From Arthrobacter sp. zg-Y238 (GTDB taxonomy: Bacteria > Actinomycetota > Actinomycetes > Actinomycetales > Micrococcaceae), in the NCBI RefSeq assembly GCF_024385525.1, contig NZ_JANFLU010000008.1, forward strand, positions 62,001-126,000: a stretch of DNA of 64,000 bases, written 5' to 3'. The position numbers and the translations under genes were made by a program. The notes beneath the pieces are model-generated. The model was given only the letters and a program-made list of their open reading frames with translations. It made no database searches and was not told where the DNA came from. Positions 12,951 through 32,039 of this stretch are shown piece after piece (position 1 is the first letter of the stretch; every line of letters starts with the position of its first letter).

Positions 12951-13493
12951 TTAAATGTACTTATTGATGTACACCCAGCGTCCCCCGAGGTCTGTACGGA
13001 GGGCTTCGAGCAGGGTCGTAACGAGTTCGGGTGAATACCCGCCGGTGCCGGTATCAATGATGACCGCGAAGGACGCCATGGCCATGCAACTCCCCAGGTC
13101 CCAGTCACCGAATAGTCCCGCCCATGAGCAGTCGGGACAGGCAAGCCGGGGCTCGGGGCCGCCGTCGTACCATTCACTGACCAGCGGAACAATCAGCTCG
13201 AGCGGAAACTGGAAAGTGCAGCGCGTGCAAACGGGACCCCCGGTACCCTCACCGGCAAAGTAGTAGTCCCGTCCGGCGACGAAGCTGTAGCTTCCGTTGG
13301 CGTCTGCGGATGCCGCCAAGGTGCGCGGTCCGAAGGCGTCGGCGGGGTGCTTGTCGTAGTAGGGGTCGTAGACCGTAGGGTCGGCCATGCTCCAGCCGGT
13401 GCTGCGGAACCACCTCCGTACCTGGCTGAATCGTTCCTCGCTTCCTTCCGGGTCTACGGAAAGGTCCAGCAGTTGTTCCCGGTTATCGCTCAT
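12951..13493 (-). CDS. Zinc-ribbon paralogue family, copy ZR1
   Basis: A 180-residue protein of a family present four times in this window (others at 23695, 24294, 24869). Shared layout: N-terminal EQLLDLSVD... helix, VRRWFRSTGW, then two Cys-x-x-Cys knuckles (CTRC and CPDC) about 33 residues apart that would bind one zinc, a hydrophobic segment MAMASFAVIID, and a C-terminal LRTDLGGRWVY. ATG 13493 matches the aligned start of the other copies and has TACGGT 5 nt upstream, suggesting a leaderless mRNA. Function is unknown; the pattern of scattered paralogues resembles orphan immunity-type genes, which is inference. Confidence 0.78.
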   Translation of the reverse strand: MSDNREQLLDLSVDPEGSEERFSQVRRWFRSTGWSMADPTVYDPYYDKHPADAFGPRTLAASADANGSYSFVAGRDYYFAGEGTGGPVCTRCTFQFPLELIVPLVSEWYDGGPEPRLACPDCSWAGLFGDWDLGSCMAMASFAVIIDTGTGGYSPELVTTLLEALRTDLGGRWVYINKYI

Positions 13494-13610
13494 GCCACAC
13501 CGTAACGAATGCCGCCGGAAAATACCCGAAAGAGCAGCAGGTTCCTCTTGCCTGCCCCTCGTCCTACGCTGGAACGGTGGCAGAACCCTCTGCCGCGGGA
13601 GGTGCCGGAA

Positions 13611-14417
13611 ATGACCGGATCGCGTGTCCTTGCCCTCGTCGTCGCCCATCCCGACGACGACGCGTACGGGCTGGCGGGAACAGTGGCGCTGCACGAAGAC
13701 GATCCGGAGTTCCGCTTCGTCCTGGTCCACGCGACCGACGGCGGCGCCGGGCAGATTGATCCGTCCTATCCGCCGGTCAACGAACCGCTGGGGCGGATCC
13801 GGCGGCGGGAAATGGAAGCCGCATGGACGGCGCACGGCAGGCCGCCGGACCGCCACGAGTGGCTGGACTACGACGACGGTGCAGTGGCGCAGGTTCCCTT
13901 CGATGAACTGGTGGAGCGGATCGGCGACATCCTGGCGCAGGAGCGGCCCGACGTCGTCGCCACCTTCGGCCCCGACGGAATCACCGGGCACCCGGACCAC
14001 ATCGCAGTCGGTGCGGCCACCGATGCAGCGTTCACGGGCCTTCGGGCCGACGGCGGTCCGGGGCTGCAGCGCCTGCTGCACGGCGGTGTCCGCCGCTCCA
14101 CCTGGGAACGGTGGAACCGCAGCCGGGTCCGGCACGGACTGGAACCCTGGGATGAGGGCAGGGTGTATGACGTACGTCCGGTTCCGGACGACCTGATCGG
14201 CATGGAGGTGGACGTCGGCAGCGTGGCGCACCGGATCGTGGCGGGGCTGATGGAGCATCGGACCCAGCGGCACGTGGTTTCCCCGGGGGTGCCCCCGGAT
14301 TCGGAAGAGGATGCCGGCTGGGCCCGTTCCGTCTCAGTGGAGCCCCTGGTCATTGCCTGGCCGCCGCGGCAGCCCGGGGCAGCCGTACTGGGTGATGTTT
14401 TCGAGGGGTTGGACTAG
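13611..14417 (+). CDS. PIG-L/LmbE-family N-acetylglucosaminyl deacetylase
   Basis: A 268-residue PIG-L family metal-dependent deacetylase. The zinc-site motif VVAHPDDDAYG is at about residues 10-20, and GHPDHIAV supplies the third ligand. Family members remove N-acetyl groups from GlcNAc-linked substrates, including MshB and Mca of the mycothiol pathway. The HPDDDAYG variant places this one with general LmbE-like members, so MshB identity is not claimed. ATG 13611 follows GGGAGGTGCCGGAA; an in-frame upstream ATG at 13509 lacks family similarity. Confidence 0.85.
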   Translation: MTGSRVLALVVAHPDDDAYGLAGTVALHEDDPEFRFVLVHATDGGAGQIDPSYPPVNEPLGRIRRREMEAAWTAHGRPPDRHEWLDYDDGAVAQVPFDELVERIGDILAQERPDVVATFGPDGITGHPDHIAVGAATDAAFTGLRADGGPGLQRLLHGGVRRSTWERWNRSRVRHGLEPWDEGRVYDVRPVPDDLIGMEVDVGSVAHRIVAGLMEHRTQRHVVSPGVPPDSEEDAGWARSVSVEPLVIAWPPRQPGAAVLGDVFEGLD

Positions 14418-14786
14418 ACGGCGTCGACGTTCCGGATGCCGAGTTGCGCGGCCCTTGGAACGCCAGCATGTCTGCCCGCCGGGTGACGGTGAGTTGCTGT
14501 GGACTCCTACCCCCTTAGGCAGGAATAAGCCATCCCGAGTACGCCTCGGTAGCCCTCTTCATATGCAACGCGCTGTTCCTCATAATATTGCCGACGGACC
14601 TGCCCTGCGGCGGGTGGAACGAGCGGGACACTGCTGAATGGATTGCTGATGCCAAGCCGGTGCAGCTTTTTCACGAACAGACGGTGGAAGAAGACAAGCT
14701 CAAGGCAGATATGGTGAATCGCCCCGATCGATGGATGCCAATCTCAGTCGGCAGCAACGACGGATTGCCCTTTGTGGATCGTGCGG
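14418..14786. other. Gene-poor stretch
   Basis: No convincing gene, RNA or repeat was found. A 78-codon frame at 14588-14824 has no recognisable domain and overlaps the SDR remnant that follows. Confidence 0.5.
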
Positions 14787-14936
14787 ATGGCGGCGAGGCA
14801 GGAATTCCGGCTCTGCACTCTTGAGGAGGAACCCGAGCCGGAGGACATCGCCGACGCGATCGCTGCCGTGGTGTCCACCGAGTTCCGCTGGGCAACGGGG
14901 GAGCGCATCGAGGTTTCCGGCGGCGTGCTGCTGTAG
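14787..14936 (+). pseudogene. C-terminal remnant of a short-chain dehydrogenase
   Basis: The frame reads MAARQEFRLCTLEEEPEPED then IADAIAAVVSTEFRWATG and ERIEVSGGVLL before TAG. The PEDIADAI...(W)ATG...I.VSGG pattern is the classic last helix and strand of SDR enzymes. The Rossmann motif and catalytic Tyr-Lys are absent, so only the last 40 or so residues of a once 250-residue gene remain. Confidence 0.75.
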
Positions 14937-15016
14937 CGAGCCCCAAGCCAAGTGTTGATGCTGCCGCAGGCCTCGCGCATATTCGGGGCTACGGCAGGAA
15001 TGAACCTAGGAGTGAC

Positions 15017-15316
15017 ATGTCCCGTGGAGCACCAGCGAAGATCGCACTGAGGCGTGGCACAAGGTTTGGTGCCGCAGCGGCGGTCCTGCTCGTTCTGGGG
15101 CCGTTCATCAACAGGAACTTCGGCGTAGCGGACAGCCTGAGTTCGATGCCGCTTTCCGCGGTCTGGGAAACGGCACCGGTCGCGGTGCTGGTAACGGTGG
15201 CCTATCTGGTCTTGCTGCTGACATCGGTGCTGCTTTGCGCCGTCGTCGTCACCGTCTCCCTCACCGCCGGCTCAACTTCCCGACGGCTCGGGACCCACCA
15301 CCAGGCAGGTGCTTGA
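15017..15316 (+). CDS. Small two-helix membrane protein, unknown
   Basis: A 99-residue protein with a basic N-terminus and two hydrophobic segments (about residues 18-32 and 51-84). CCTAGGAGTGAC places a good AGGAG site before ATG 15017. No family recognised. Its last 45 nt overlap the end of the convergent thioesterase gene on the other strand, so the C-terminal tail may be under dual constraint. A plain integral membrane protein is all that can be said. Confidence 0.6.
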   Translation: MSRGAPAKIALRRGTRFGAAAAVLLVLGPFINRNFGVADSLSSMPLSAVWETAPVAVLVTVAYLVLLLTSVLLCAVVVTVSLTAGSTSRRLGTHHQAGA

Positions 15317-15784
15317 CGCGGTAGCGAGAACCCGGCCGGCGGCGTCGCGCAGGTCCGCTTCGACAAACGCTGCGTTGCGCCCGGCCTTGGTCACCCATCC
15401 GTGGGCGGTGACGGTGCCCGTGTTCGCGGTGGCGGGCCGCAGGAAGGACACTTTGAGTTCGAGGCTGGTGTAGCCGGCGCCGGCCGGCAGCGTGGAGTGC
15501 ACGGCGCAGCCGCAGGCGGAGTCCAGGATGGTGGCGAAAAAGCCGCCGTGGACGGACCCGATCGGGTTGTAGTGCGATTCGTCCGGTTCCGCCGTCATCA
15601 CCACATCCCCCTCGCTCACGCTGACGAGGCGCAGCCCCACGTGGCTGCTGATCGGCGGGGCGGGAACCTCGCCGGCGGCAAGCGCCTGCAAGTGCTCGAG
15701 TCCGGTCCGCGAGAATATGCGTGCGACGTCCCGCTCTGCAGGGGAGTATTCGAGCGTTTTCGAACGCATTTCGGAAGCGGGCAT
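15272..15784 (-). CDS. PaaI-family hot-dog thioesterase
   Basis: A 170-residue single hot-dog protein. The motif NPIGSVHGGFFATILDSACGCAV is the PaaI/YigI signature (HGG followed by an active-site Asp), and LELKVSFLRPA gives the next strand. Family members hydrolyse aromatic or medium-chain acyl-CoA thioesters in the cytosol. The start ATG 15784 follows GAAGGAGCTCCG. The 3' end overlaps the small membrane-protein gene by 45 nt in convergent orientation. Confidence 0.88.
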   Translation of the reverse strand: MPASEMRSKTLEYSPAERDVARIFSRTGLEHLQALAAGEVPAPPISSHVGLRLVSVSEGDVVMTAEPDESHYNPIGSVHGGFFATILDSACGCAVHSTLPAGAGYTSLELKVSFLRPATANTGTVTAHGWVTKAGRNAAFVEADLRDAAGRVLATASSTCLVVGPEPSGS

Positions 15785-15858
15785 CGGAGCTCCTTCAGGG
15801 CTGGTGAGTGCTGGGACTCATAGACACAGTAATGCAGGCCATTCTGTCATGCTGGTCC

Positions 15859-16020
15859 ATGACCGCAGATCCCAGCCCCGCACGGCAGCCGACCAACGCG
15901 GGCGACCGCGTCCTCGACGGCCCGTTCTCAAGGCCCTCGCCCACCCGCTCCGGGTGCAGCTGTCCCCAGACAGCGAGCAGCATGGGAAAACGGGTGGGGG
16001 AATCGAGGTGAGCCACCAGC
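15859..16020 (+). pseudogene. Decayed ArsR-type regulator N-terminus
   Basis: From ATG 15859 one frame reads MTADPSPARQPTNAGDRVLDGP; shifting one frame at 15924 continues VLKALAHPLRVQL, the hallmark opening helix of ArsR-type winged-helix repressors (L-x-A-L-A-x-P-x-R). After that the similarity fades within about 20 codons. Two disruptions and a missing recognition helix mark it as a remnant. It occupies the 300-nt gap before the MFS gene, where no intact gene was found. Confidence 0.6.
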
Positions 16021-16080
16021 TATCACCTTCGGCAACTGGCCCGGCACTGCCTGGTCCGCGGCCATGCCGCAGCCCCGTCA

Positions 16081-17304
16081 CTAGAATTGGTTTGACCGCG
16101 GTGCGTTGACCGGTTGAGACCACTGTCGTTTTGTACGGGGAAGACCCGTCAGTATCAAAGCGCCGACAATCGCCGCAATTCCGCCTACGGTCAGAGCGTA
16201 GGTCGCCCCGGCGCCGTCGACGAGGACTCCGCCGACGCTCGCTCCGACGGCGATCGCGATATTGCAGACCGTCACGATAAGCCCGCCGATCTGCTCAAGG
16301 CGTGTCGGTACAGTCCTGGCACCCCAGCTGAGCACTGCGGTCGGGATTCCGCCGAAACCAAAACCCCAGAGTGCGGCGCCGGTGAAAAGGCCTGTGATTG
16401 ATTCGCCGGCGAGGAGCATAACGAGCATTCCGAGTCCCAATACCGCAGGGAAGAGGAACACGGCGGCCCGAAGCGCACGGTCGGCCAGGGGGCCGCTGAG
16501 AAGAGTGCCCAGGACGCTGGCGGCTCCGAACACGAGCAGCAGCACGGCCAGACCACCGGCATCGATTCCGGACACGGTTTCTGCCGCCGGGCGGATATAC
16601 GTGAATCCGCCGAAGTGGCCGCCGAAGACCAGCAGGACCGCAACCAATCCCACTACGACCACTCCGGAGCGAAGGGTCGATCCGAGGGCGCGAAGCCCGC
16701 GCACTCCTGTAGGCCTGACGGCCGGCAGCGTGGCCGCCTGCACGAGCAGGGCCAGAGCGGCGACGATAGCGGCGATGAAGAAGACGGCCCGCCATCCCCA
16801 GATCTCACCGAGCCAGGCGCCGAGAGGTACGGCAACGATGGTTGCAACCGCTACACCGGCGTTGATGACGGTCAGCGCACGGCCGAGATGGTCGGCGGGC
16901 ACCAAGTGAGCGGCCATGGCGGTGGCCATTGCCCAGAAGCCGCCAAGGGCAACACCGAGCAGGAGCCGCGCGGACAGAAGAACGAAAAGGCCGGGTGCCA
17001 GGGCAACGAGGACGTTGGAGAGGATGGCCAAGGCGGTAAGGCTGATCATGACCCGCCGGCGATCGGTGCGGGGGAGGACCACTGCGATAAAGAGGGCCGA
17101 GAAAACAGCAGCGACGGCCGTCATTGTCACGCTTTGTCCTGCAGCACCGACTGATACGTCCAGGGATCCGGCGATACGCGGAAGGAGACTCGCGGGCAGG
17201 AACTCAGACATAACAATCGCGAAGATTCCAAGGCCGAGCGAGACGACACCGCCCCAGGAGGCTGTCTTGTCTGCTTTGGCGATGTGTGCAGGGGTGGCGG
17301 TCAT
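16081..17304 (-). CDS. MFS efflux transporter (DHA1, NepI/AraJ-like)
   Basis: A 407-residue protein with about 12 membrane helices. FAIVMSEFLPASLLPRIA in helix 1, the LPRTDRRRVM loop between helices 2 and 3 and RLLLGVALGGFWAM in helix 4 fit the DHA1 drug/nucleoside exporters. ATG 17304 starts the conserved region; the frame extends upstream without similarity. It follows the SDR gene by 16 nt on the same strand, so the two form an operon under the divergent XRE regulator. Substrate is unknown. Confidence 0.87.
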   Translation of the reverse strand: MTATPAHIAKADKTASWGGVVSLGLGIFAIVMSEFLPASLLPRIAGSLDVSVGAAGQSVTMTAVAAVFSALFIAVVLPRTDRRRVMISLTALAILSNVLVALAPGLFVLLSARLLLGVALGGFWAMATAMAAHLVPADHLGRALTVINAGVAVATIVAVPLGAWLGEIWGWRAVFFIAAIVAALALLVQAATLPAVRPTGVRGLRALGSTLRSGVVVVGLVAVLLVFGGHFGGFTYIRPAAETVSGIDAGGLAVLLLVFGAASVLGTLLSGPLADRALRAAVFLFPAVLGLGMLVMLLAGESITGLFTGAALWGFGFGGIPTAVLSWGARTVPTRLEQIGGLIVTVCNIAIAVGASVGGVLVDGAGATYALTVGGIAAIVGALILTGLPRTKRQWSQPVNAPRSNQF

Positions 17305-17320
17305 TGTGTTGACCCTTCTA

Positions 17321-18004
17321 CTAGAAGTGCAGCACGCCGTTTTCGTCCCGGAGGGTTCCGGTTGGGCCCTCCGAGCCGTGGGTGGCGAGGTGTACAACGA
17401 CTCGTGCGCTTTCTTCCGGTGACCTCCCGATACCGAAGCGGGCCGTCATATCCGTGGCAGTGGTGCCGGGTTCGAGCGCGTTGAACTTGATGCCGGGGTG
17501 GGATTTGGCGTACTGCACGGTGAGCATGGTCGCCGCCGTCTTCGACGCCGAGTAGAGGGCAAGCGGCAGGTCGAACTCGGGTCGATCGGGGTTGGTTACC
17601 GCCCAGAAGGACCCGGCGCTGCTCGAGATGGTGACTACATGGGCGTTGGCGGATTTGCGCAGCAGGGGGAGCGCCGCCTGCGTGACGCGGACAATACCTA
17701 CGGCATTGGTATCGAAGGCCCGGAGGGCGGAAGGGCCGTCCATCTCCGTCTCCAGGACGCCTGCGTTGTGCACCAGGACATCGAGCCGCCCCTCGGCGGC
17801 ATCAATGCTCGCCAGTGCGCTGGTGACTGAGGCGTCATTCGTTACATCGAGCTGCACGAATCGAGCGCCCAGCCCTGCTGCGGCTTTCTCACCCCGCTCG
17901 GCATCACGGGCACCTATGTAAACGACATGCCCCAACTCCAGCAGTTGCCTGGCAGTCTCGAATCCGATGCCCTTGTTCGCCCCGGTGATTAGTGTGACGG
18001 TCAT
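17321..18004 (-). CDS. Short-chain dehydrogenase/reductase
   Basis: A 227-residue classical SDR. TGANKGIG is the cofactor loop at residues 7-14, NAG follows near residue 80, and the catalytic Ser and Tyr-x-x-x-Lys are in TISSSAG and YSASKTA. This subgroup (carbonyl-reductase-like) is typically NADPH-dependent. It is the first gene of an operon with the MFS transporter and is divergent from the XRE/MmyB-type regulator, a pairing seen very often in actinobacteria, where the regulator controls the SDR. A 22-bp GC-rich element 84 nt upstream may be the operator. Confidence 0.88.
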   Translation of the reverse strand: MTVTLITGANKGIGFETARQLLELGHVVYIGARDAERGEKAAAGLGARFVQLDVTNDASVTSALASIDAAEGRLDVLVHNAGVLETEMDGPSALRAFDTNAVGIVRVTQAALPLLRKSANAHVVTISSSAGSFWAVTNPDRPEFDLPLALYSASKTAATMLTVQYAKSHPGIKFNALEPGTTATDMTARFGIGRSPEESARVVVHLATHGSEGPTGTLRDENGVLHF

Positions 18005-18087
18005 TTTTGTCCTCTCGGTAGGCCAGCTCCAGCTGAACCACTGCAACGCTACGAATGCCTGCTTCCACCGGCCAGAGCCCTGTCCAG

Positions 18088-18109
18088 CCGGGGGAGTGGC
18101 AGGACCCCC
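18088..18109. promoter_or_regulatory. Candidate operator in the SDR/XRE divergent promoter
   Basis: CCGGGGG-AGTGG-CAGGACCCCC, an element with GGGGG and CCCCC ends. It is identical at 19 of 22 positions to 22539-22560 in front of another minus-strand gene, at nearly the same distance from the start codon (84 versus 81 nt). Confidence 0.5.
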
Positions 18110-18141
18110 TCTGCCGCTGTCCCTCCTGCCCTGCCAGGTCC

Positions 18142-18147
18142 TAGGCT
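18142..18147 (+). promoter_or_regulatory. -10 hexamer, leaderless promoter of XRE regulator
   Basis: TAGGCT (TANNNT) lies 7 nt before the ATG at 18155, the spacing expected if transcription starts at the A of ATG. No ribosome-binding site is visible between them. Confidence 0.55.
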
Positions 18148-18154
18148 GGCTCCC

Positions 18155-19027
18155 ATGAGTAAGACATCGAACGCCCTTGGCGACTACCTGCGGGCCAGGC
18201 GCGAGCTGGTAACACCGAAGCAGGCCGGCATCCCGGACATAGGTGTGCGGCGCGTGCCCGGACTGCGGCGCGAGGAAGTGGCCATGCTCGCCGGCATCAG
18301 CGCCGATTACTACCTGCGGTTGGAGCGTGGACGGGACCGGCACCCGTCCGTGCAGGTCCTCGAGTCCATCGCCCGCGTGCTCCAACTTGACGACGACCAC
18401 CTCGCGTACCTGCTCACGCTGGTCGCGGACGTTCCCCGGCAGCGCGTTCGCCGGCCGTCCAAGGAAACCGCTCCCGCTGGTGCACTCAAGCTGCTGGATT
18501 CGCTCGCCCAGCCCGCCTTCATCGAGGGGCGGTACTTCGATATCCTGGCCGCGAACAGCCTGGCGAAAGCGCTCTCGCCGCGTCTTGATCTCGGGGGGAA
18601 CCAGCTGAGGGACATGTTCCTCGACCCGGCAGAGCAGGCCCTTTATCCGGAGTGGGAAGTGGTGACGGAGTGCTTCATTGCGAACCTTCGGCAGTCCGTG
18701 GGCAAGGATGTCGATAATCCCCGTTTCATTGAACTTGTCGGAGAGCTTTCGCTGGCGAGCCCCTACTTCCGCCGGATGTGGGCACGGCATGAAGTGCGGG
18801 CCCAGAGAGGCACACCGATGCGGCTCAACCATCCGCAGGTCGGGGAAATGACTCTCAACCGGGAGCGGCTGGGCATCAACGGAGCGGACGGACTGATGCT
18901 CGTCATTTACCACCCCGACGCCGGCTCGGACAATGCCGAGAAACTTGCACTCCTTGCCTCCGCGGCCTTCTCGACGAACACGAGTCAGGATCATCCGCAA
19001 ACCGGCGCCAGACTGACCAGGGAGTAA
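18155..19027 (+). CDS. XRE-family regulator with MmyB-like ligand domain
   Basis: A 290-residue regulator. Residues about 10-95 form an XRE helix-turn-helix (LGDYLRARRELVTP, PGLRREEVAMLAGISADYYLRLERGRD). Residues about 115-270 form the MmyB-like PAS-type domain (GRYFDILAANSLAKAL, then LNHPQVGEMTL) that binds small hydrophobic ligands in this family. It is divergently transcribed from the SDR-MFS operon, which it most likely represses. The NAD(P)-binding gene downstream starts 5 nt after its stop and is probably co-transcribed. Confidence 0.9.
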   Translation: MSKTSNALGDYLRARRELVTPKQAGIPDIGVRRVPGLRREEVAMLAGISADYYLRLERGRDRHPSVQVLESIARVLQLDDDHLAYLLTLVADVPRQRVRRPSKETAPAGALKLLDSLAQPAFIEGRYFDILAANSLAKALSPRLDLGGNQLRDMFLDPAEQALYPEWEVVTECFIANLRQSVGKDVDNPRFIELVGELSLASPYFRRMWARHEVRAQRGTPMRLNHPQVGEMTLNRERLGINGADGLMLVIYHPDAGSDNAEKLALLASAAFSTNTSQDHPQTGARLTRE

Positions 19028-19031
19028 TACC

Positions 19032-19766
19032 GTGACTACTATCGGCATCCTCGGCGCAGGCCAGGCCGGAGCAACGCTTGCCCGGGTGGCAACGGCGGCG
19101 GGCTACGACGTCGTTATCGCGAATTCGCGGGGACCCGAAACCTTGCGGCGGCTGGTCAATGACCTGGGACGGCGGGCGCGCGCCGCCTACGCGGCAGAGG
19201 CCGCGGCTGCAGCCGACTTCGCCGTCACCGCGTTCCCGTACGCGCCCGGTGACCGGCTGCCGGTGCAGGAACTCGCAGGAAAGGTCGTGATCGACAACAA
19301 CAATTACATGGTCTGGCGCGACGGGAACTTCCCCGACGTCGACTCCGGGCTCAAGACAGTCCATGAGTTACGTCAGGAACAGCTGCCCGCCTCGAAGGTC
19401 GTCAAGGCGTTCAACCACGTCCAGTTCCATGAGCGCTTCCACCTCCGTGTCCCCAGCGACGCGCTGCCGGCCATCATGCGGCTGGCGCGACCGGCCGGAG
19501 CCCCAGACCGTAAAGCGCTGGTCGTCTCCAGCGACTATCCGGAGGCCGTCGAACTGGTTACCCGGTTCTATGACGATCTAGGTTTCGACGCAGTTGATAA
19601 CAGCCCCCTGAGCGAATCCTGGCGCAGCAGCCCCGGTACGCCGATGTGGCGCCACCACGTCGATGGACAAAGCCGCGAGGAACTCATCCGCAATCTGCAG
19701 CGCGCTCAACGGTCCGTCACCTCAACCCCGGCAGCGGCTCAGGCGAAGGGGCCCATGCCTGCGTAA
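19032..19766 (+). CDS. F420-dependent NADP reductase-like / NPDR-type oxidoreductase
   Basis: A 244-residue protein with an N-terminal Rossmann motif GILGAGQAGATLA (residues 4-16), then NSRGPETL, the usual 2'-phosphate-binding loop of NADP-linked members, and VVIDNNNYM. The fold matches the NADP oxidoreductase, coenzyme F420-dependent group; whether F420 is really used cannot be read from sequence. GTG start 19032 follows GGGAGTAATACC. Its last 28 nt overlap the convergent SDR gene at 19739. Confidence 0.78.
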   Translation: MTTIGILGAGQAGATLARVATAAGYDVVIANSRGPETLRRLVNDLGRRARAAYAAEAAAAADFAVTAFPYAPGDRLPVQELAGKVVIDNNNYMVWRDGNFPDVDSGLKTVHELRQEQLPASKVVKAFNHVQFHERFHLRVPSDALPAIMRLARPAGAPDRKALVVSSDYPEAVELVTRFYDDLGFDAVDNSPLSESWRSSPGTPMWRHHVDGQSREELIRNLQRAQRSVTSTPAAAQAKGPMPA

Positions 19767-20461
19767 AGAGCTTCGGGAGGCAGGCTCAGCTGGTCCTTGA
19801 CGGCTTGCGTGTCTGCATCCAGAAACTCGTGCGGCCCCTTCAGCAGGGCATCCAGCACATCCGAGATGATCACGCTGGGGTCGTTCTTGGGAATGTCCCA
19901 GCCCTTCATCATGTCGGTATCGGTGGAAGAGAGGTGCACGCCCATCACATGCGTGCCCTGGCCGGCAAGCTCCAGGCGCGTGCTGTTGGTGAGCTGCCAC
20001 TCGGCGCCCTTCGCGGCAGCGTAGGCACCGTTTCCCGGATACGAGCGGAAGGACAGCAGGGACATGACATTCATGATCGCGCCGCCGCCGTTGGAACCGA
20101 GGATCGGCGCGAAGGCCCGTGTCATTGCCAGGGTGCCCCAGAAATGGGTGTCCATTTCTGCCCGGATACGGCCGAGGTCCCCAGTCAGCAGATTCGTGGC
20201 CGTGGCAATGCCCGCATTGTTGATCAGCAGATTCACATCCGTCGCCGCGGCGGCCGCCGCCTCAACGGTGGCCGGATCGGTGATGTCCACTACGAGCGCC
20301 TCAACCTGGCCGGGTGCTCCGAGCTGCTCAAGGAGGCTGACCTTTCCGGGCTGACGGGTTGTCGCGTAGATCTTCCGTGCACCCCGCTCAACCAGCTGGA
20401 TCACGAACTCCCGTCCCAGGCCCCTGTTCGCTCCGGTTACCAGTGCAACTGTCTCATTCAT
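19739..20461 (-). CDS. SDR-family oxidoreductase regulated by the divergent MerR
   Basis: A 240-residue classical SDR: TGANRGLGREF at residues 9-19, NNAGIA near residue 86, catalytic Ser in VMSLLSF and Tyr-x-x-x-Lys in YAAAKGAEW. It is divergent from a MerR-type gene at 20517 with a perfect 8-bp-arm dyad between them, so induction by that regulator is likely. The 3' end overlaps the NPDR-type gene by 28 nt in convergent orientation. Substrate is unknown. Confidence 0.88.
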   Translation of the reverse strand: MNETVALVTGANRGLGREFVIQLVERGARKIYATTRQPGKVSLLEQLGAPGQVEALVVDITDPATVEAAAAAATDVNLLINNAGIATATNLLTGDLGRIRAEMDTHFWGTLAMTRAFAPILGSNGGGAIMNVMSLLSFRSYPGNGAYAAAKGAEWQLTNSTRLELAGQGTHVMGVHLSSTDTDMMKGWDIPKNDPSVIISDVLDALLKGPHEFLDADTQAVKDQLSLPPEALYAGMGPFA

Positions 20462-20474
20462 AGCTCCACCGTAA

Positions 20475-20496
20475 AACCTGACGTGAGTGTCAGGTT
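20475..20496. promoter_or_regulatory. MerR operator between SDR and MerR genes
   Basis: AACCTGAC-GTGAGT-GTCAGGTT is a perfect inverted repeat with 8-bp arms. It lies 14 nt from the SDR start and 21 nt from the MerR start, a position typical for MerR-family operators in divergent promoters. Confidence 0.75.
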
Positions 20497-20516
20497 CAAG
20501 TCCAGGAAGGATCCAT

Positions 20517-20873
20517 ATGCGTATCGGGGTGCTGGCTGCTCGCAGCGGAGTGAGCGTGAGATCGCTGCGGTATTACGAAACCCGGGGGCTGTTGGTCTCG
20601 TCCCGCACCGGCGGCGGGCATCGTGAGTACGACGACGACGCCGTCGACCGGGTGATCCTCATCCAGGAGCTGATGGCTGCCGGCCTGACCAGTGCTGTGA
20701 TCGTGCAACTGCTGCCCTGTATCTACTCGGGAACGACAACACCTTCCATGGTCAAACGCCTGGACGAGCAACGTGAACTTCTCGACCGGCGTGCCCGTGA
20801 GCTCCTCGCCACCAGGGACCGCCTCGATGACCTCATCATTGAAGCCCGCCACCGGCTCGTCACCCATAACTAG
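20517..20873 (+). CDS. MerR-family transcriptional regulator
   Basis: A 118-residue MerR protein. MRIGVLAARSGVSVRSLRYYETRGLL is the diagnostic N-terminal winged helix, and VDRVILIQELMAAGL leads into the long dimer coiled coil (residues about 75-115). There is no C-terminal Cys-rich metal site; the single Cys is in LLPCIYSG. ATG 20517 follows AGGAAGGATCCAT. It faces the SDR gene across a perfect operator, so it probably controls both itself and the SDR. Confidence 0.92.
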   Translation: MRIGVLAARSGVSVRSLRYYETRGLLVSSRTGGGHREYDDDAVDRVILIQELMAAGLTSAVIVQLLPCIYSGTTTPSMVKRLDEQRELLDRRARELLATRDRLDDLIIEARHRLVTHN

Positions 20874-20900
20874 ACCGGGTCCTCACAGGGCCACCCCTGC

Positions 20901-20930
20901 GTAACGGGCAGCTCTGGTTATGCCCGTTAC
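20901..20930. promoter_or_regulatory. 10-bp inverted repeat upstream of the CGNR gene
   Basis: GTAACGGGCA (20901-20910) and TGCCCGTTAC (20921-20930) are exact reverse complements separated by 10 nt. The dyad ends 8 nt before a TAGGTT -10 hexamer, so a protein bound here would cover the -35 region. Confidence 0.6.
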
Positions 20931-20938
20931 ACAGATGC

Positions 20939-20944
20939 TAGGTT
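20939..20944 (+). promoter_or_regulatory. -10 hexamer, leaderless promoter of CGNR gene
   Basis: TAGGTT lies 6 nt before the ATG at 20951. With no Shine-Dalgarno sequence in the GCAGGC gap, a leaderless mRNA is predicted. Confidence 0.5.
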
Positions 20945-20950
20945 GCAGGC

Positions 20951-21457
20951 ATGAATGAAGATCTGATTGGGGCCTTGGTGAAAGTTGCCTCGACACGAGC
21001 TGAAGGCCAGTGGCCCGAGCAACTGGACCTTGATGTTTTCCATAGGTTCCTCAGAGACCCGGCACCCGCCGCCGCGCTGATTGATGATGTGGCAGTTGCC
21101 CGGCATGCCCGCGATTTATTGGCCGCGGTCCTGGTCGACGGTACGGATGCGGAGGCCCGGAGCGCCCTGAACAGTGTGGCAGCGACATACGCCGTCGTGC
21201 CCCGGATAGACGGGAACGGACCCTACTTCCTGTCTCTTAGCGGAACCGCTGAGGGCGCCTTTTGGGCGCAGATTCTGGCGGACTTGATGCAGGCGGTGAG
21301 CGAAGGATGCCGAGCCCGCGTGGGCAGATGCGTTTCCGCGCCGTGCATCATGCCTTTTCTCGACACCTCAACGGCAGGCGTGCGGGAATTCTGCTCCGTT
21401 CGTTGCGCAACGCGCGCCCGGGTACGCCGCCATCGTTCGAAGGAGGGTTCGTCATGA
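20951..21457 (+). CDS. CGNR zinc-finger (ABATE-domain) regulator-like protein
   Basis: A 168-residue protein. The C-terminal zinc finger has four Cys in the order RCVSAPC...REFCSVRCATRARVRRHR, the pattern of CGNR fingers (here C-A-T-R replaces C-G-N-R), with a basic DNA-contact helix. The N-terminal part would be the ABATE stress-sensing domain, here short. It is likely a DNA-binding regulator. A perfect 10-bp-arm dyad sits just upstream and could be its own operator. Its stop overlaps the ATG of the next small gene (ATGA). Confidence 0.82.
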   Translation: MNEDLIGALVKVASTRAEGQWPEQLDLDVFHRFLRDPAPAAALIDDVAVARHARDLLAAVLVDGTDAEARSALNSVAATYAVVPRIDGNGPYFLSLSGTAEGAFWAQILADLMQAVSEGCRARVGRCVSAPCIMPFLDTSTAGVREFCSVRCATRARVRRHRSKEGSS

Positions 21458-21684
21458 CTGCAGTAATGCCGGCGACACACAGCCAGTACCGCCTTCCGGA
21501 TACCGCAAATCTATGCTCGCGCCTGCTGCATGCGGCCGGGCTCTGGCTGCTTCGTAAAGCGCTGGAGCCGCGCCTTAGTGCCGATCGGCAGAACATCATG
21601 CTGGAGTACCGGAACGTTTCCGACCAGAAGGCTCGAAGGCTGCAGGCGGAGCGCCGGTATCACCTGCTGGTGGGTCCCAGGTGA
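21454..21684 (+). CDS. 76-residue protein coupled to the CGNR gene
   Basis: Starts at ATG 21454, overlapping the CGNR stop in an ATGA junction, with a strong AAGGAGG site 8 nt upstream inside the CGNR coding end. The protein begins MTAVMPATHSQYRLPDTANL, has one amphipathic Leu-rich helix (LCSRLLHAAGLWLLRKALE) and a basic tail. No family recognised. The strong translation signal and coupling argue that it is real and works with the CGNR protein. Confidence 0.6.
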   Translation: MTAVMPATHSQYRLPDTANLCSRLLHAAGLWLLRKALEPRLSADRQNIMLEYRNVSDQKARRLQAERRYHLLVGPR

Positions 21685-21744
21685 GCGTGAGCAGTAAGTC
21701 CGCGAAAGGAGCGCCGGCAATCGCCGGCAGCCGTGTGCAGCGGA

Positions 21745-22161
21745 CTAAGGGTTCATGACGTGATTCCCTGAATGATGAGTCCGACGCCGGCGGCCAGCAG
21801 GCCGACGCCCAGCACGGCCGCTCCACAGAAGCATAATGGCCCGGTTGGGCCGTGCGGGATCCTGGCCGATCACGGAGACGAAAAAACCGGTGGGCATCAG
21901 GATTGCGGCCGCAAGGACGCCGAGGGAAATCGTGGCGAACGGCTCGGGCACGCCGTTCGCCTGCACGATGACCATGATCAGGAGGCCGAGGATGATGAGC
22001 ACTCCCGCGTGGGCGTGGCCGGCACGGAAGAAGCTCTTTTGAAGGTCGTTCGCCGGGAATCGTGCGGTTACCGCTGTAAAGACGAACCGGCCGCCGTATG
22101 CGACGCCGATGACGGTGAGGAGAACGACGCCGGCGATGACCTGGTGAGTGCTATCGAGCAT
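21745..22161 (-). CDS. Four-helix membrane protein, 3' end apparently frameshifted
   Basis: A small polytopic membrane protein of about 138 residues as read, starting MLDSTHQVIAGVVLLTVIGV, with AGHAHAGVL in the third segment. After RAIMLLWSG the reading frame turns into an Arg-rich tail (GRAGRRPAGRRRR), whereas the next frame from about 21820 reads AAVLGVGLLAAGVGLIIQGIT to a stop at 21753, an ideal last membrane helix. So a one-base indel near 21817-21824, real or from sequencing, has removed that helix. GGGAGGG precedes ATG 22161. Likely co-transcribed with the 2TM gene. Confidence 0.65.
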   Translation of the reverse strand: MLDSTHQVIAGVVLLTVIGVAYGGRFVFTAVTARFPANDLQKSFFRAGHAHAGVLIILGLLIMVIVQANGVPEPFATISLGVLAAAILMPTGFFVSVIGQDPARPNRAIMLLWSGRAGRRPAGRRRRTHHSGNHVMNP

Positions 22162-22182
22162 GATGTTCCCTCCCGGTACGGG

Positions 22183-22458
22183 TCAGCCGTCTCGCCGCAT
22201 CCGAGCCACTTCGGCTTCAATCCGGCGATCCGATATGGCGGGACGGCCTGCGTAGACAGGGATCCCCGCAATGACCGCGGCGACAAGAGTCCCCAGGATC
22301 GGCCAGACCGGCCAGAAGTACCCGTCCGGCGTCGTGAAGTACCAGATAGCGACCTGAAGGACCGCGAGCAGCAGGCAGAGACCGACCACCCCTTTGTAAA
22401 TGGTCTTCGCGATGACGCGGCGGCGGGCAAGTTCGTACGATTCATTAGGCGTTGACAT
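22183..22458 (-). CDS. 2TM-domain protein
   Basis: A 91-residue protein with a charged N-terminus (ARRRVIAKTIYKG), two membrane helices (about residues 23-42 and 50-68) joined by a short YFTTPDGYFWPVWPIL loop, and an acidic/basic tail. This fits the bacterial 2TM domain family. It is 21 nt upstream of the four-helix membrane gene on the same strand. A 22-bp element in front of it (22539-22560) nearly matches one in the SDR/XRE promoter at 18.1 kb, so it may share that regulator. Confidence 0.7.
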   Translation of the reverse strand: MSTPNESYELARRRVIAKTIYKGVVGLCLLLAVLQVAIWYFTTPDGYFWPVWPILGTLVAAVIAGIPVYAGRPAISDRRIEAEVARMRRDG

Positions 22459-22538
22459 GGTGTGGTCTTCCTTTCAGATGCGGTGTTGGGGCATCAACGC
22501 TACAAATCCCGGGTATCAGCGGCCAGTGCCCCGCACAT

Positions 22539-22560
22539 CCGGGGGTTTGACAGGACCCCC
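22539..22560. promoter_or_regulatory. Second copy of the 22-bp candidate operator
   Basis: CCGGGGG-TTTGA-CAGGACCCCC, 19 of 22 identical to 18088-18109, 81 nt upstream of the 2TM gene start. Confidence 0.5.
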
Positions 22561-22590
22561 CTCCCGCATTTGCCTGGTGCACCGGATAGC

Positions 22591-22802
22591 CGGGTGCTGG
22601 GATTCGAACAGCGGCAGGATGTGCCGGCGGGCGGGGCGCGCTGGCTGACCGTGGGGGTGCCGGGGGAGGACGCCGGGGTGGAACTGCTGCTCGAACCGGC
22701 CGGGCATCCCGCCGTCGCACCATTCACGGAGGCGCTGGTATCGGACGGGATCCCTCCGACACCGTCGGCAACCTCATCCAGATCGCCGATACTGCGGACT
22801 GA
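22591..22802 (+). pseudogene. VOC/glyoxalase-family remnant with internal deletion
   Basis: One frame reads VLGFEQRQDVPAGGARWLTV then GVELLLEPAGHP and FTEALVSDGIP, the first half of a VOC-family protein. Directly after, in another frame, SDTVGNLIQIADTAD runs to TGA 22802, the VOC C-terminal D-x-x-GN-x-I-Q-I strand. About 40-45 residues in between and the N-terminal start are missing. This fills the gap between the 2TM promoter and the DUF427 gene, where there is no intact gene. Confidence 0.75.
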
Positions 22803-22809
22803 AGCAGCC

Positions 22810-23628
22810 TTAGAAGCGGAACAGGGAGTTGATTTCCTGTTTGGCGTCGTCCACGTACACGTCGGTGCGCTCGTCGAAGAACGAGACCCGGTCCTTGAGC
22901 TGCGCCGAGTCGGGCAGCACCCGTTCATACGACCAGGCCAGGTCCGTTCCCGCCGGATGCCCGGTCACCGACCAGTAGTTCGCGGTCCCCTTATACGGGC
23001 AGACGGACCGGAAGGTCGATGCGTTGAGGACATCCCAGTCCACGTCCGAGCGTGGAAAGTAGGTCCGCGGCGGAAGCATGGTTTCGTACACGAGCAGCGG
23101 CTGGCGGGTCTCGGCCAGCAGCTGTCCGTCCAGGTGCACCCGCACGGCACGCGAGGAGTCCACGGCGTCGACCCGGTGGAAGGGATCCCGGGGGTGCCCC
23201 TCGACCACCTGGTCTTCCTCCAGCCACCGGTCGAACGCATTGAAGTCCAGCAACACATACCCGCCAAGATCTGCATCATCCGGACGGAACCCCGCACCGG
23301 GCAGCTCATGCGCACCTGCGCGCAGGTCCAGTGGCTGGCCGGGGGCAGTGTGCGCGGAGAACGGATAGCGCGGGTCCATCAGGGCGCCCGGCGGCACCTC
23401 GGCCAGCGGGTCGCCGTCGGGCTCGGAAGCAGCCGTCACCTCCGCTGAGATATCTCCGGCGGGTACGGCGTAGATGGGGGTGACTCGCCTCGGCTCATAG
23501 GCCAGCACCGCACTGGTGGAATCCACCACGGTGTTGCCGCCGAGCTGTGCCCGGATACGCCGCGGCGTGGGTTCGTAGCGCAGCTCCGGCAGGAGTTTCC
23601 AGAAAGCGGGACTGATGTGCAGGGCCAT
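22810..23628 (-). CDS. DUF427-domain protein
   Basis: A 272-residue protein with two DUF427 modules. The first covers about residues 25-150 (IRAQLGGNTVVDSTSAVLAYEP), the second about 165-265 (RVHLDGQLLAETRQPLLVYET, SVCPYKGTANYWSV, AWSYERVLPD). DUF427 proteins are compact beta-rich proteins of unknown biochemical role. ATG 23628 begins MALHISPAFWKLL. It ends the minus-strand block that starts with the zinc-ribbon array, 66 nt after ZR2, and may be transcribed with it. Confidence 0.85.
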   Translation of the reverse strand: MALHISPAFWKLLPELRYEPTPRRIRAQLGGNTVVDSTSAVLAYEPRRVTPIYAVPAGDISAEVTAASEPDGDPLAEVPPGALMDPRYPFSAHTAPGQPLDLRAGAHELPGAGFRPDDADLGGYVLLDFNAFDRWLEEDQVVEGHPRDPFHRVDAVDSSRAVRVHLDGQLLAETRQPLLVYETMLPPRTYFPRSDVDWDVLNASTFRSVCPYKGTANYWSVTGHPAGTDLAWSYERVLPDSAQLKDRVSFFDERTDVYVDDAKQEINSLFRF

Positions 23629-23694
23629 GGAACAAGTTTCTGGCGGGCTGCCACCCGATACAAGGGCCTGCGGATTCGGCCGCTTCGCAAGGTC

Positions 23695-24273
23695 TTAGTC
23701 GTGAAAATACATAAACACCCAATGCCCGCCGAGATCGGCCTGTAACTGCTCCACAAAATGCCGCGGAAGTTCGTACGGATCCACCGCGGTACGCCAATCC
23801 TGGCCGATCGGGACATGCCAGTCCCGGTCGATGATGACGGCAAACGAGGCGACAACCAGGGAGGTGCTGAGCTCCCAGCGCCCCCAGGGGGCGTGCCATG
23901 AGCAGCGGGGACAGGTCAGGTCCGGTTCCTGACCCGAGTCCAGCCACCCCTGGATCATCCTGGCAACCTTGTCGATGTCCAGTTCCTCACCGCATTTCCG
24001 GCACTTCGGTCCGCCCGTGCTGTCGCCCAGGTAATAGACGTCGAGGCCGGGAATAAAGGTGAAGACAAAGTATGGCCGGCGGGGATCCAGTTGCCCCATG
24101 AGAAGGGGTCCGGGTCCGTCGGACACTTCCTGGCTGTGCCGGTAGTCGTAGACCTGTGGGTCGGGTGCGCTCCAACCGTTGTCCCGGAACCATTTCCGTA
24201 CCTCGTGCATGCGCGCTTCGGCGTTTGCGTCGTCCACGGACAAATCCAGCAGCTGTGCACGAGTATCCCCCAT
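23695..24273 (-). CDS. Zinc-ribbon paralogue family, copy ZR2
   Basis: A 192-residue member of the four-copy family. N-terminus MGDTRAQLLDLSVDDANAEA, then VRKWFRDNGWSAPDP; the Cys knuckles are CRKC and CPRC, 32-34 residues apart; the C-terminus is LQADLGGHWVFMYF. It is the longest copy, with a unique RDWHVPIGQDW insertion before the last helix. Third and last of the array in transcription order (ZR4-ZR3-ZR2), 20 nt after ZR3. ATG 24273 has TAGGGT 6 nt upstream, so its own leaderless transcript is likely. Function unknown. Confidence 0.78.
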   Translation of the reverse strand: MGDTRAQLLDLSVDDANAEARMHEVRKWFRDNGWSAPDPQVYDYRHSQEVSDGPGPLLMGQLDPRRPYFVFTFIPGLDVYYLGDSTGGPKCRKCGEELDIDKVARMIQGWLDSGQEPDLTCPRCSWHAPWGRWELSTSLVVASFAVIIDRDWHVPIGQDWRTAVDPYELPRHFVEQLQADLGGHWVFMYFHD

Positions 24274-24279
24274 GCGCAT

Positions 24280-24285
24280 ACCCTA
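24280..24285 (-). promoter_or_regulatory. -10 hexamer of ZR2 (leaderless)
   Basis: Minus strand reads TTAGGGT-ATGCGC-ATG; TAGGGT is 6 nt from the start codon and the same block precedes ZR3 and ZR4. Confidence 0.6.
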
Positions 24286-24293
24286 ACGCAGGG

Positions 24294-24824
24294 CTAAAGG
24301 TGGCGGTGGACATAGGCCCAGCGACCGCCGAGATCCGTCCGCAGTGCCTCCATCAGCGGGTCGGCGAGGTTCGACCAGGTGTGGTCAATGATGACTGCGA
24401 GGTGTGCCACGGCCATGCATGAGGAAATCTTCCAATCTCCAAGCAGTGCAGTCCAGGAGCATTCCGTGCAGGTGAGGAGGGGTTCGGCCCCGCCCTGGTC
24501 CCAGTCACTTATCCGGGAGATGACTGACATCAGCGGAAGTTCCGTCCCGCATCTTCGGCACACTGGTCCGCCTGCACTGTCACCGGCATGGTAGAGGTCC
24601 CGCTTGGCAACAAAGGCATAGCAGTCACCCGGATCATGCGCGAATGGGAGGCTTCGGGGGCCGAAGGCGTCTGCCGGGCGCGTCTCGAAGTAGACCTTGC
24701 AGGCGTCCGGATCAGCCTTGGTCCAGCCGTTGGTCCTGAGCCAGTTTCGGACTTCCTGAAGGCGCTCTTCCGCGCCGGCCTCATCCACGGACAGATCCAG
24801 CAGCTGTTCCCAGTGATCTCCCAT
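24294..24824 (-). CDS. Zinc-ribbon paralogue family, copy ZR3
   Basis: A 176-residue member of the family. MGDHWEQLLDLSVDEAGAEE opens the protein, followed by VRNWLRTNGWTKADPD; the Cys pairs are CRRC and CTEC. The hydrophobic segment is MAVAHLAVIID and the C-terminus LRTDLGGRWAYVHRHL, closest to ZR1. It lies between ZR4 (44 nt upstream) and ZR2 (20 nt downstream). TAGGGT is 6 nt before ATG 24824. The zinc-ribbon reading is inferred from two CxxC pairs only. Confidence 0.78.
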   Translation of the reverse strand: MGDHWEQLLDLSVDEAGAEERLQEVRNWLRTNGWTKADPDACKVYFETRPADAFGPRSLPFAHDPGDCYAFVAKRDLYHAGDSAGGPVCRRCGTELPLMSVISRISDWDQGGAEPLLTCTECSWTALLGDWKISSCMAVAHLAVIIDHTWSNLADPLMEALRTDLGGRWAYVHRHL

Positions 24825-24830
24825 GCGCTG

Positions 24831-24836
24831 ACCCTA
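24831..24836 (-). promoter_or_regulatory. -10 hexamer of ZR3 (leaderless)
   Basis: Minus strand reads GGGTTAGGGT-CAGCGC-ATG, with 6 nt between TAGGGT and the start codon. Confidence 0.6.
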
Positions 24837-24868
24837 ACCCAGCTCTGGAGAGCAGGGCTCCCCGCAGA

Positions 24869-25408
24869 TCAGATGTTCTCGACCATATGGACCCAGCGTC
24901 CGCCAAGCTGGCTGCGGAGTTCTTCCAGCAGGGCGGCGATGAGTGGATCGGGATTCAACGAATGGTCGTGGACATCGACGATGATGGCGAAGGAGGCCAC
25001 CGTCAGGGAACCCAGGATCTCCCAGTCGCCCATCCTCTCCTGCCTGGAACAGCTCGTACACGACAGGACCGGCTCCACGTGGCTGTCCCAAGCAATGGCC
25101 AGCTGGACAGCTTCGTCGAGGTCGTATTCCGTGCCGCATTTCCGGCAACGCGGACCGTAGGAATCACCGCCGCCAATGTAGATGCCGTGAAGGGGCACAA
25201 ACGAGTACACGCCGTTTCCCGCAAACAGCCTGGAACTGCGCTCTCCAAAGGAATCGGCGGGGTACATCTCGTAGTACTCGTCATAGGCGGCAGGATCGGC
25301 TTCGCTCCACCCGGTGCGGCGGAACCAGTCCCGCACCCGGACTAAATGCCCTTCGGCGTCGGCTTCGTCGACGGACAAATCCAGCAGCTGTGCGCGAGAA
25401 TCCCCCAT
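24869..25408 (-). CDS. Zinc-ribbon paralogue family, copy ZR4
   Basis: A 179-residue member of the family, first in transcription order. MGDSRAQLLDLSVDEADAEG, then VRDWFRRTGWSEADPAAYDE; Cys pairs CRKC and CTSC; hydrophobic MTVASFAIIVD-like segment (LTVASFAIIVD) and C-terminus LRSQLGGRWVHMVENI. ATG 25408 aligns with the other copies and has TAGGGT 6 nt upstream; an in-frame ATG two codons earlier exists, but it would abut the -10 hexamer. It follows the MBL-fold gene by 55 nt on the same strand. Confidence 0.78.
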   Translation of the reverse strand: MGDSRAQLLDLSVDEADAEGHLVRVRDWFRRTGWSEADPAAYDEYYEMYPADSFGERSSRLFAGNGVYSFVPLHGIYIGGGDSYGPRCRKCGTEYDLDEAVQLAIAWDSHVEPVLSCTSCSRQERMGDWEILGSLTVASFAIIVDVHDHSLNPDPLIAALLEELRSQLGGRWVHMVENI

Positions 25409-25414
25409 GCGCAC

Positions 25415-25420
25415 ACCCTA
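25415..25420 (-). promoter_or_regulatory. -10 hexamer of ZR4 (leaderless)
   Basis: Minus strand reads GGGTTAGGGT-GTGCGC-ATG, with 6 nt between TAGGGT and the start codon, as in ZR2 and ZR3. Confidence 0.6.
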
Positions 25421-25463: not shown

Positions 25464-26105
25464 CTAGTGCCCCCGGTCGATCCATTCCTGCAGGTGCGGA
25501 CCTTCGGCGGCGATCGACGTCGAATCCCCGTGCCCGGTGAGCACCTTCGTCTCCGCCGGCAGCGTCAGCAGGCGTTCCCGGATGGATTCGATGATGGTCG
25601 GGAAGTCGCTGTAGGAACGGCCCGTGGCACCGGGGCCGCCCTGAAACAGCGTGTCGCCGCTGAAGACCACGGGCTCCGGAACGTCCTCGCCGGCGGCCAG
25701 CGAGAAGCAGACCGATCCGGGGGAGTGCCCCGGCGTGTGCAGGGCGCGCAGCGTGTGGCCGGCAATCTCGAACGTGTCGCCGTCCTCGATCACATCGTCC
25801 GGTCCCTCGTCGGGGAATACGGCGTCCCACAGCATCCGGTCCGCGGCGTGCAGGAACACCGGGGCGCTGAAGCGGTCCCGGGCCTTGCCGACGGCGCGGA
25901 TGTGGTCGTCATGCCCGTGGGTGAGCAGGATGGCCATGACCTCCCGGTCACCCACGGCTTCGGCGATCGCGTTGATGTTGTGCGCCGGGTCGATGACGAT
26001 CACCTGGAGGTCGTCGCCGACAATCCAGACGTTGTTGTCCACGTCCCAGGTGCCGCCGTCCAGGGAGAAGGTTCCCGAGGTGACCACGTTGTCGATGCGG
26101 AACAT
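25464..26105 (-). CDS. MBL-fold hydrolase, probable S-formylmycothiol hydrolase
   Basis: A 213-residue metallo-beta-lactamase-fold enzyme. THGHDDH supplies the zinc ligands, followed by the His in HTPGHSPGS, Asp in FSGDTLF and a late His in LTGHGD. Its ATG shares one base with the stop of the mycothiol-dependent formaldehyde dehydrogenase gene (TAATG), so translation is coupled. Mycobacteria have the same pair (Rv2259-Rv2260), and hydrolysis of S-formylmycothiol to formate is the expected next step. The specific reaction is inferred from this context. Confidence 0.85.
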   Translation of the reverse strand: MFRIDNVVTSGTFSLDGGTWDVDNNVWIVGDDLQVIVIDPAHNINAIAEAVGDREVMAILLTHGHDDHIRAVGKARDRFSAPVFLHAADRMLWDAVFPDEGPDDVIEDGDTFEIAGHTLRALHTPGHSPGSVCFSLAAGEDVPEPVVFSGDTLFQGGPGATGRSYSDFPTIIESIRERLLTLPAETKVLTGHGDSTSIAAEGPHLQEWIDRGH

Positions 26106-31172: not shown

Positions 31173-31198
31173 ATCGGGTAGGTTGTGCCGCATGACAC
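31173..31198 (+). repeat. 26-bp leader repeat, copy 1
   Basis: ATCGGGTAGGTTGTGCCGC followed by ATGACAC, exactly repeated at 32014-32039. It contains the -10 hexamer TAGGTT (31179-31184), 7 nt before the start codon, and the first codons of the gene. Confidence 0.9.
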
Positions 31199-32013: not shown

Positions 32014-32039
32014 ATCGGGTAGGTTGTGCCGCATGACAC
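32014..32039 (+). repeat. 26-bp leader repeat, copy 2
   Basis: Identical to 31173-31198. The -10 TAGGTT (32020-32025) again lies 7 nt before the start codon at 32033. Confidence 0.9.

Follow-up and report, generated by a model that had tools for sequence, protein, structure and literature searches.

Homogeneous polyimmunity loci were defined by Zhang et al. (2012; PMC3482391), and Imm36/DUF600 is among the families reported there to form them. The same account pairs Imm52 with Tox-REase-5 and Imm61 with Ntox40, and the sections used here list Imm52 for proteobacteria and caudoviruses, not for actinobacteria. Recombination has been described between the tandem esaG genes of Staphylococcus aureus (Garrett et al., 2022; PMC9484751). 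The subject of this work is a family of small genes, ZR1 to ZR4, in a 64,000-nucleotide window of Arthrobacter sp. zg-Y238 (contig NZ_JANFLU010000008.1, positions 62,001 to 126,000; the window is the whole stretch of DNA analysed). The titles and abstract openings of published accounts on immunity proteins, polymorphic toxins, type VII secretion and DUF6882 do not describe this family.

We propose, with a probability of about 0.5, that ZR is a new immunity-protein family encoded in a polyimmunity locus. The proposal is built on observations of paralogy, predicted fold, patchiness, copy-number variation, gene exchange and neighbourhoods. An alpha/beta core with a four-cysteine knuckle would remain constant while the surface varies. 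The target of each copy would be one variant of an antibacterial toxin from related competitors, delivered for example by type VII secretion, which the ZR protein would bind and neutralise. ZR2 to ZR4 would then be a homogeneous polyimmunity locus of one-gene cassettes, each with its own start-proximal promoter. Such cassettes might be gained, lost, broken and exchanged through recombination in their flanks.

Four paralogues on one scaffold

ZR1 to ZR4 are open reading frames on the minus strand with products of 176-192 residues. Consecutive genes of the ZR2-ZR4 array are separated by 20 and 44 bases, with no gene of another kind between them. The other three proteins are 41, 52 and 46% identical to ZR1 across their full length, and all six pairs fall at 40-52%. 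When ZR1 was searched against its own genome, ZR2-ZR4 were matched at E 6e-41 to 6e-61. The remaining two of the six rows were a match at E 0.006 with three stops and one at E 0.2. The genome therefore has four convincing ZR copies, and they are paralogues rather than a chance likeness.

The initial annotation had placed the four genes and described a shared scaffold. Both statements hold: all four frames are present and open, and the 48 positions invariant in the alignment of the four include Q7-D14, W28, R30, G33-W34, two CxxC pairs (C89/C92 and C119/C122), G170-G171 and W173. The strong divergence that it saw in the middle is only partly borne out. Averaged over all pairs of eight genus types, identity is highest in residues 1-14 (0.77), followed by the two cysteine knuckles (0.57 and 0.53). 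Residues 32-67 reach 0.38-0.42, and the most variable parts are helix 98-110 (0.30) and loop 149-154 (0.15). What had been called a QLLDLSVD helix is mostly beta strand (E4-10) in the AlphaFold2 model.

A variable slot and the exchange of one gene

The array occupies a slot between a metallo-beta-lactamase (MBL)-fold gene and a DUF427 gene. A ZR gene directly follows the MBL gene in 7 of the 29 genomes of the genus, with one to three copies each: three in the zg-Y238 genome and G009 (one of them broken in G009), two in G021 and one each in G019, G020, G027 and G028. G015 has a broken copy 1.3 kb beyond the MBL gene of the slot. This copy (ZR3), ZR3 of G009 and a copy in G089 are the three degenerate ZR genes. 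Seven other genomes of the genus have DUF427 within 1.5 kb of the MBL gene and no ZR between. The slot of G001, G005 and G006 is taken by a gene from a family without a Pfam match, which is also found 2.3 kb from ZR in G298 (30-34% identity). This family, of about 350 residues with an LLAGPRGR-like start, was seen at L042 6055-7116, L101 2247-3290, L103 2239-3327 and L110 2217-3254; the Pfam scan covered two members.

G019 and G020 offer a natural experiment, in which one ZR gene is replaced and the neighbourhood is nearly unchanged. Their matching blocks measure 10.2 kb (99.5%), 4.7 kb (98.5%), 1.8 kb (95.8%) and 0.2 kb (97.1%), and their ZR1 proteins are identical. Identity falls immediately past the stop codon of the MBL gene, stays between 32 and 76% in 50-column steps within the ZR gene and is back at 92-100% from the start of DUF427. 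The slot gene is ZR3-like in G019 and of another type in G020, closest to ZR2 by eye. Apart from the ZR gene, two segments, each a few hundred bases long and near 7.0-7.2 kb of L048, have no counterpart in G020. The alignment shows that one whole ZR gene has been exchanged between these near-identical relatives.

Selection and the start-proximal block

The ratio of nonsynonymous to synonymous substitution rates (dN/dS) is 0.23-0.46 in 11 ZR pairs, compared with 0.04-0.19 in flanking genes. These ranges are for kept rows (11 of 14 ZR pairs): PIG-L rows (taken in the wrong frame), G015 rows (poor or partial orthologues) and rows under 100 codons were excluded. G009 rows were also excluded, both flanks and ZR, for dS below 0.03; there the flanks ran from 0 to 0.41 and ZR from 0 to 0.31. 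ZR genes are thus under weaker purifying selection than their flanks, and diversification is not proved by these ratios.

In 5 of 17 pairs, residues that agree are encoded by the same codon more often within the first 20 codons than in the remainder of the gene (p<0.05, uncorrected). The lowest p is 0.0004 and two pairs survive the Bonferroni limit of 0.0029; none of the five involves ZR1 or G004. Just ahead of this block, a TANNNT hexamer stands 5-6 bases before the ATG in 15/15 ZR rows, which share ancestry and are not 15 independent cases, and is TAGGGT in all but ZR1. Among 257 called genes, 36 carry the hexamer under a 5-7 base rule. The alternative starts two codons upstream in ZR2 and ZR4 would break its spacing, and ZR3 has none. 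The hexamer may be a promoter, presumably the -10 box of a leaderless transcript of the kind known from actinobacteria.

Predicted fold and family searches

The family had been left unnamed by the initial annotation, and the family libraries supplied no housekeeping family for it. ZR1-ZR4 have no match above cut-off in Pfam, NCBIfam or PADLOC and none below E 0.05 in PHROGs, and ZR1, the one copy compared, has none among PDB sequences. Ten homologues searched against Pfam and five against NCBIfam gave zinc-ribbon-like matches only, below cut-off. The YezG-like, Imm52, Imm61 and other Pfam immunity families match neither ZR1-ZR4 (E up to 10) nor the ten homologues (E up to 1).

An AlphaFold2 model built from 13 aligned homologues has a mean predicted local distance difference test score (pLDDT) of 92.6 and a predicted template modelling score of 0.90. 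Its elements run in the order strand, helix, short strands, long strand, cysteine knuckle with helix, long strand, helix, strand. The alpha/beta core is read as ferredoxin-like, with the four-cysteine knuckle inserted between its halves. This agrees with the ferredoxin-like rows of VIA-align at Z 5-7, none of which stands out; the best Z for the ZR model is 7.0, a level that the tool itself calls common. One such row, chain 6d7y_B of an immunity complex (Z 5.8, 96 aligned, root-mean-square deviation 3.5), was considered as kin and dropped as one among many. Foldseek found no match at E 0.001 or less against PDB for this model or that of more distant homologues (see below), nor against BFVD for this model. 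The predicted fold therefore seems to have no convincing match among solved structures. C89, C92, C119 and C122 are invariant in 13/13 alignment rows and would form a zinc-binding site. The proteins are probably cytoplasmic, since a hydrophobic N-terminus is not visible.

Immunity-family neighbours

Thirty hand-picked neighbour proteins were scanned against Pfam (one of them twice). Genes in relatives were called by a simple script, which gives approximate starts and can overlook small genes. The window itself contains a tandem Imm52-like pair (Table 1). In G027 an Imm52 match (28.7 bits) lies 4.9 kb from ZR. In G004 the ZR gene adjoins an Imm52-like gene that scores 13.9 bits, below the cut-off of 25, and shares 38-45% identity with its Imm52-like counterparts in the window and G027.

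A second kind of company is seen at L031, where a YezG-like gene (23.0 bits, cut-off 21.7; PF04634, which we take to be DUF600), an Imm61-like gene (14.6 bits, below the cut-off of 25) and ZR stand in a row, the YezG-like gene two genes upstream of ZR. This YezG-like match is the single one in its genome, G351, and lies 0.7 kb from ZR. The record (WNZI01000002.1) is labelled Vibrio cholerae 35D and reads as actinobacterial; G351 falls in the window's own family. G314 also has an Imm61-like gene upstream of ZR, 90% identical to that of L031, with no YezG-like match there. An Imm61 profile search found no match anywhere, and its controls were likewise silent, which makes it uninformative.

Genes of the YezG-like kind occur elsewhere in the zg-Y238 genome. 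Contig C15 opens with a row of five similar genes (L082 165-2684), adjacent to a ligA-like gene. Two of them match YezG-like below cut-off, and two were matched by BLAST to the G351 gene at E 2e-23 and 2e-24. Genes judged by eye to be similar stand beside WXG-size genes near the EccC gene of the conspecific G009. ZR profiles have no match in the C15 row or at this G009 locus.

Distribution and distant homologues

For the family, order and class about 395 genomes each were drawn, and the best 8 candidates per genome were scored. ZR matches were obtained in 9/29 genus genomes, 15/395 family genomes, 3/396 order genomes and, at E 0.01, 14/394 class genomes; the last two counts include the zg-Y238 genome. 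This is a patchy distribution and not that of a single-copy gene conserved in all relatives. Besides the record labelled Vibrio cholerae, named ZR loci come from Arthrobacter sp. zg-Y844, A. zhaoxinii and A. bussei. The place of ZR1 beside a lipase-maturation-factor-like gene is common to six of the nine ZR genomes of the genus. Phage records gave no ZR match, and neither did viral contigs, searched with exact peptide patterns from two single proteins. One plasmid, pCPAA3 of Curtobacterium pusillum, has a match (28% to ZR1, 37% to the G298 homologue).

A profile of Streptomyces-type homologues matches 12 of 394 class genomes at E 1e-6. It aligns with the ZR profile over 168 columns (E 4.8e-20, probability 99.3), and a model from eight such homologues (pLDDT 91.2) has the main elements in the same order. 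However, identity in the profile alignment is 20%, the knuckle region is longer and, in the homologue alignment (A3), invariance is limited to three of the four cysteines, one being missing from member L078. L073 9740-10958 carries a tandem pair of these homologues behind TetR-like and acyl-CoA genes (names by eye).

These homologues stand, by eye, among metabolic and regulatory genes. Perhaps, then, ZR is an accessory zinc protein with RNA, DNA or a small ligand as its binding partner, a regulator or stress protein diversified by ordinary duplication and horizontal transfer. The invariant cysteines and the predicted alpha/beta core would suit such a role. However, a one-gene swap in a near-constant neighbourhood, divergence in tandem and immunity-family neighbours are not expected of it, and we regard this explanation as unlikely.

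Type VII secretion and other contexts

In G360 the ZR gene belongs to a same-strand run with genes for DUF6882 (60.2 bits) and a CbiA/MinD-type protein (27.7), beside DUF6177 (82.2) and an FtsK/SpoIIIE EccC-type ATPase (207.7), and so lies on the margin of a type VII secretion locus. G089 resembles G360 along one side of ZR but is without a full EccC. Its truncated ZR frame, in which similarity ends at about residue 131, shares bases with the C-terminal portion of a nuclease toxin (PF13930, 32.2 bits). In the place that the type VII secretion locus takes in G360, nuclease-toxin C-terminal fragments then alternate with genes for 166-215 residues (L041 3061-9016), which are weakly similar to YezG-like (BLAST E 2e-5 to 7e-4) and have no Pfam match. 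The run in G360 might indicate an accessory role for ZR in type VII secretion, for instance as a chaperone of variable effectors or as their targeting partner. However, in the zg-Y238 genome EccC (1150 bits) is on contig C11, far from ZR on contig C8. ZR occurs in G351 without any EccC match, and the EccC matches of G027 and G028 are weak. This makes the accessory-factor role rather improbable. WXG100 matches occur in 15/15 ZR genomes, and this co-occurrence was discarded as a type VII link: in both genomes of the genus that were inspected, the WXG100-like gene stands alone beside groEL (L129 15217-15507; L132 11964-12254).

A place in some other accessory defence, for instance anti-phage, would suit genes that are patchy, exchanged and sometimes broken. 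It seems slightly less probable again, given no PADLOC match and, by eye, no common effector gene beside the copies. A type II toxin-antitoxin antitoxin, which the initial annotation had suggested too, is very improbable: G255 has RelB/RelE-like genes at a distance of about 1.8 kb from ZR (by eye), but no partner gene separates the closely spaced genes of the array, which were the only ones viewed closely.

Weighing the polyimmunity proposal

A polyimmunity locus fits better than these alternatives because it accounts together for tandem divergent paralogues, patchiness, single-gene exchange and immunity-family company. Several observations weigh against it. In the loci viewed, intact ZR copies have no toxin gene next to them, and the neighbours were chosen by hand, without blind control, from a handful of loci. 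Six of the 29 genus genomes have an Imm52 match, and the four with ZR share one neighbourhood; the other two are without ZR. In 11 Streptomyces-type loci viewed by eye there is no immunity or toxin gene adjacent. ZR presence is not correlated with type VII genes, since full-length EccC is equally common with ZR (7 of 9 genomes of the genus) and without (14 of 20). The hexamer is not evident in 13 upstream stretches of homologues outside the genus, and positive selection is not seen in the dN/dS of ZR pairs.

Our figure of 0.5 reflects this balance: no toxin partner was found, the loci are few and hand-picked, and distant homologues lend no neighbourhood support. Of the immunity or antitoxin function put forward in the initial annotation, the immunity half has gained indirect support from the patchy, copy-variable slot, the gene exchange and the immunity and type VII neighbours. 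The type II antitoxin half has found none. A wider version, that ZR belongs to an undescribed superfamily of actinobacterial immunity proteins reaching from Arthrobacter to the Streptomyces type, with a zinc knuckle inserted in an alpha/beta core, exchanged among close relatives as leaderless one-gene cassettes and perhaps acting against type VII effectors, is somewhat less probable than the proposal itself.

Table 1. Features of the ZR locus and its surroundings in the window
Feature	Position	Strand	Remark
ZR1	12951..13493	-	180 aa; adjoins lipase-maturation-factor-like gene
TACGGT hexamer	13499..13504	-	5 bases before ZR1 ATG; putative promoter
DUF427 gene	22810..23628	-	slot border; Pfam PF04248, 109.8 bits
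ZR2	23695..24273	-	192 aa; alternative ATG at 24279, two codons upstream
TAGGGT hexamer	24280..24285	-	6 bases before ZR2 ATG; putative promoter
ZR3	24294..24824	-	176 aa
TAGGGT hexamer	24831..24836	-	6 bases before ZR3 ATG; putative promoter
ZR4	24869..25408	-	179 aa; alternative GTG at 25414, two codons upstream
TAGGGT hexamer	25415..25420	-	6 bases before ZR4 ATG; putative promoter
MBL-fold gene (name by eye)	25464..26105	-	slot border; matched in 29/29 genus genomes, match split in G022
First gene of Imm52-like tandem pair	31192..32013	+	itself unmatched in Pfam; shares 48% identity with the second gene
Second gene of pair, Imm52	32033..32818	+	PF15579, 33.6 bits (cut-off 25); 6.6 kb from ZR4

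Comparison with known systems

Polymorphic toxin immunity genes adjoin their cognate toxin, a feature not seen for intact ZR copies in the loci viewed; orphan immunity genes lack such adjacency by definition. The Imm52 and YezG-like families are found near ZR genes or in the same genomes, but the Pfam scan gives no sign that they are homologous to ZR. The ZR2-ZR4 array, as tandem paralogues of one type, corresponds to a homogeneous polyimmunity locus as described in the consulted sections of Zhang et al. (2012; PMC3482391). It differs from those loci in that ZR matches no Pfam immunity family and is not known to have a toxin partner.

The esaG genes, going by the portions of Garrett et al. (2022; PMC9484751) used here, encode type VII immunity proteins and resemble ZR in being tandem, in varying in copy number among close strains, in having a conserved 5' stretch and in undergoing recombinational exchange. 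The two are unrelated by family search. Moreover, esaG has three homology blocks whereas in ZR only a 5' block was seen, significant before correction in the 5 of 17 pairs noted above, and the exchange in G019 and G020 spans the gene from flank to flank, unlike that of esaG. The tandem type VII immunity genes of that study come from Firmicutes. If the polyimmunity proposal is right, ZR would provide immunity with a protein architecture that no solved structure convincingly matches, and would point to toxins that environmental actinobacteria use against their kin.

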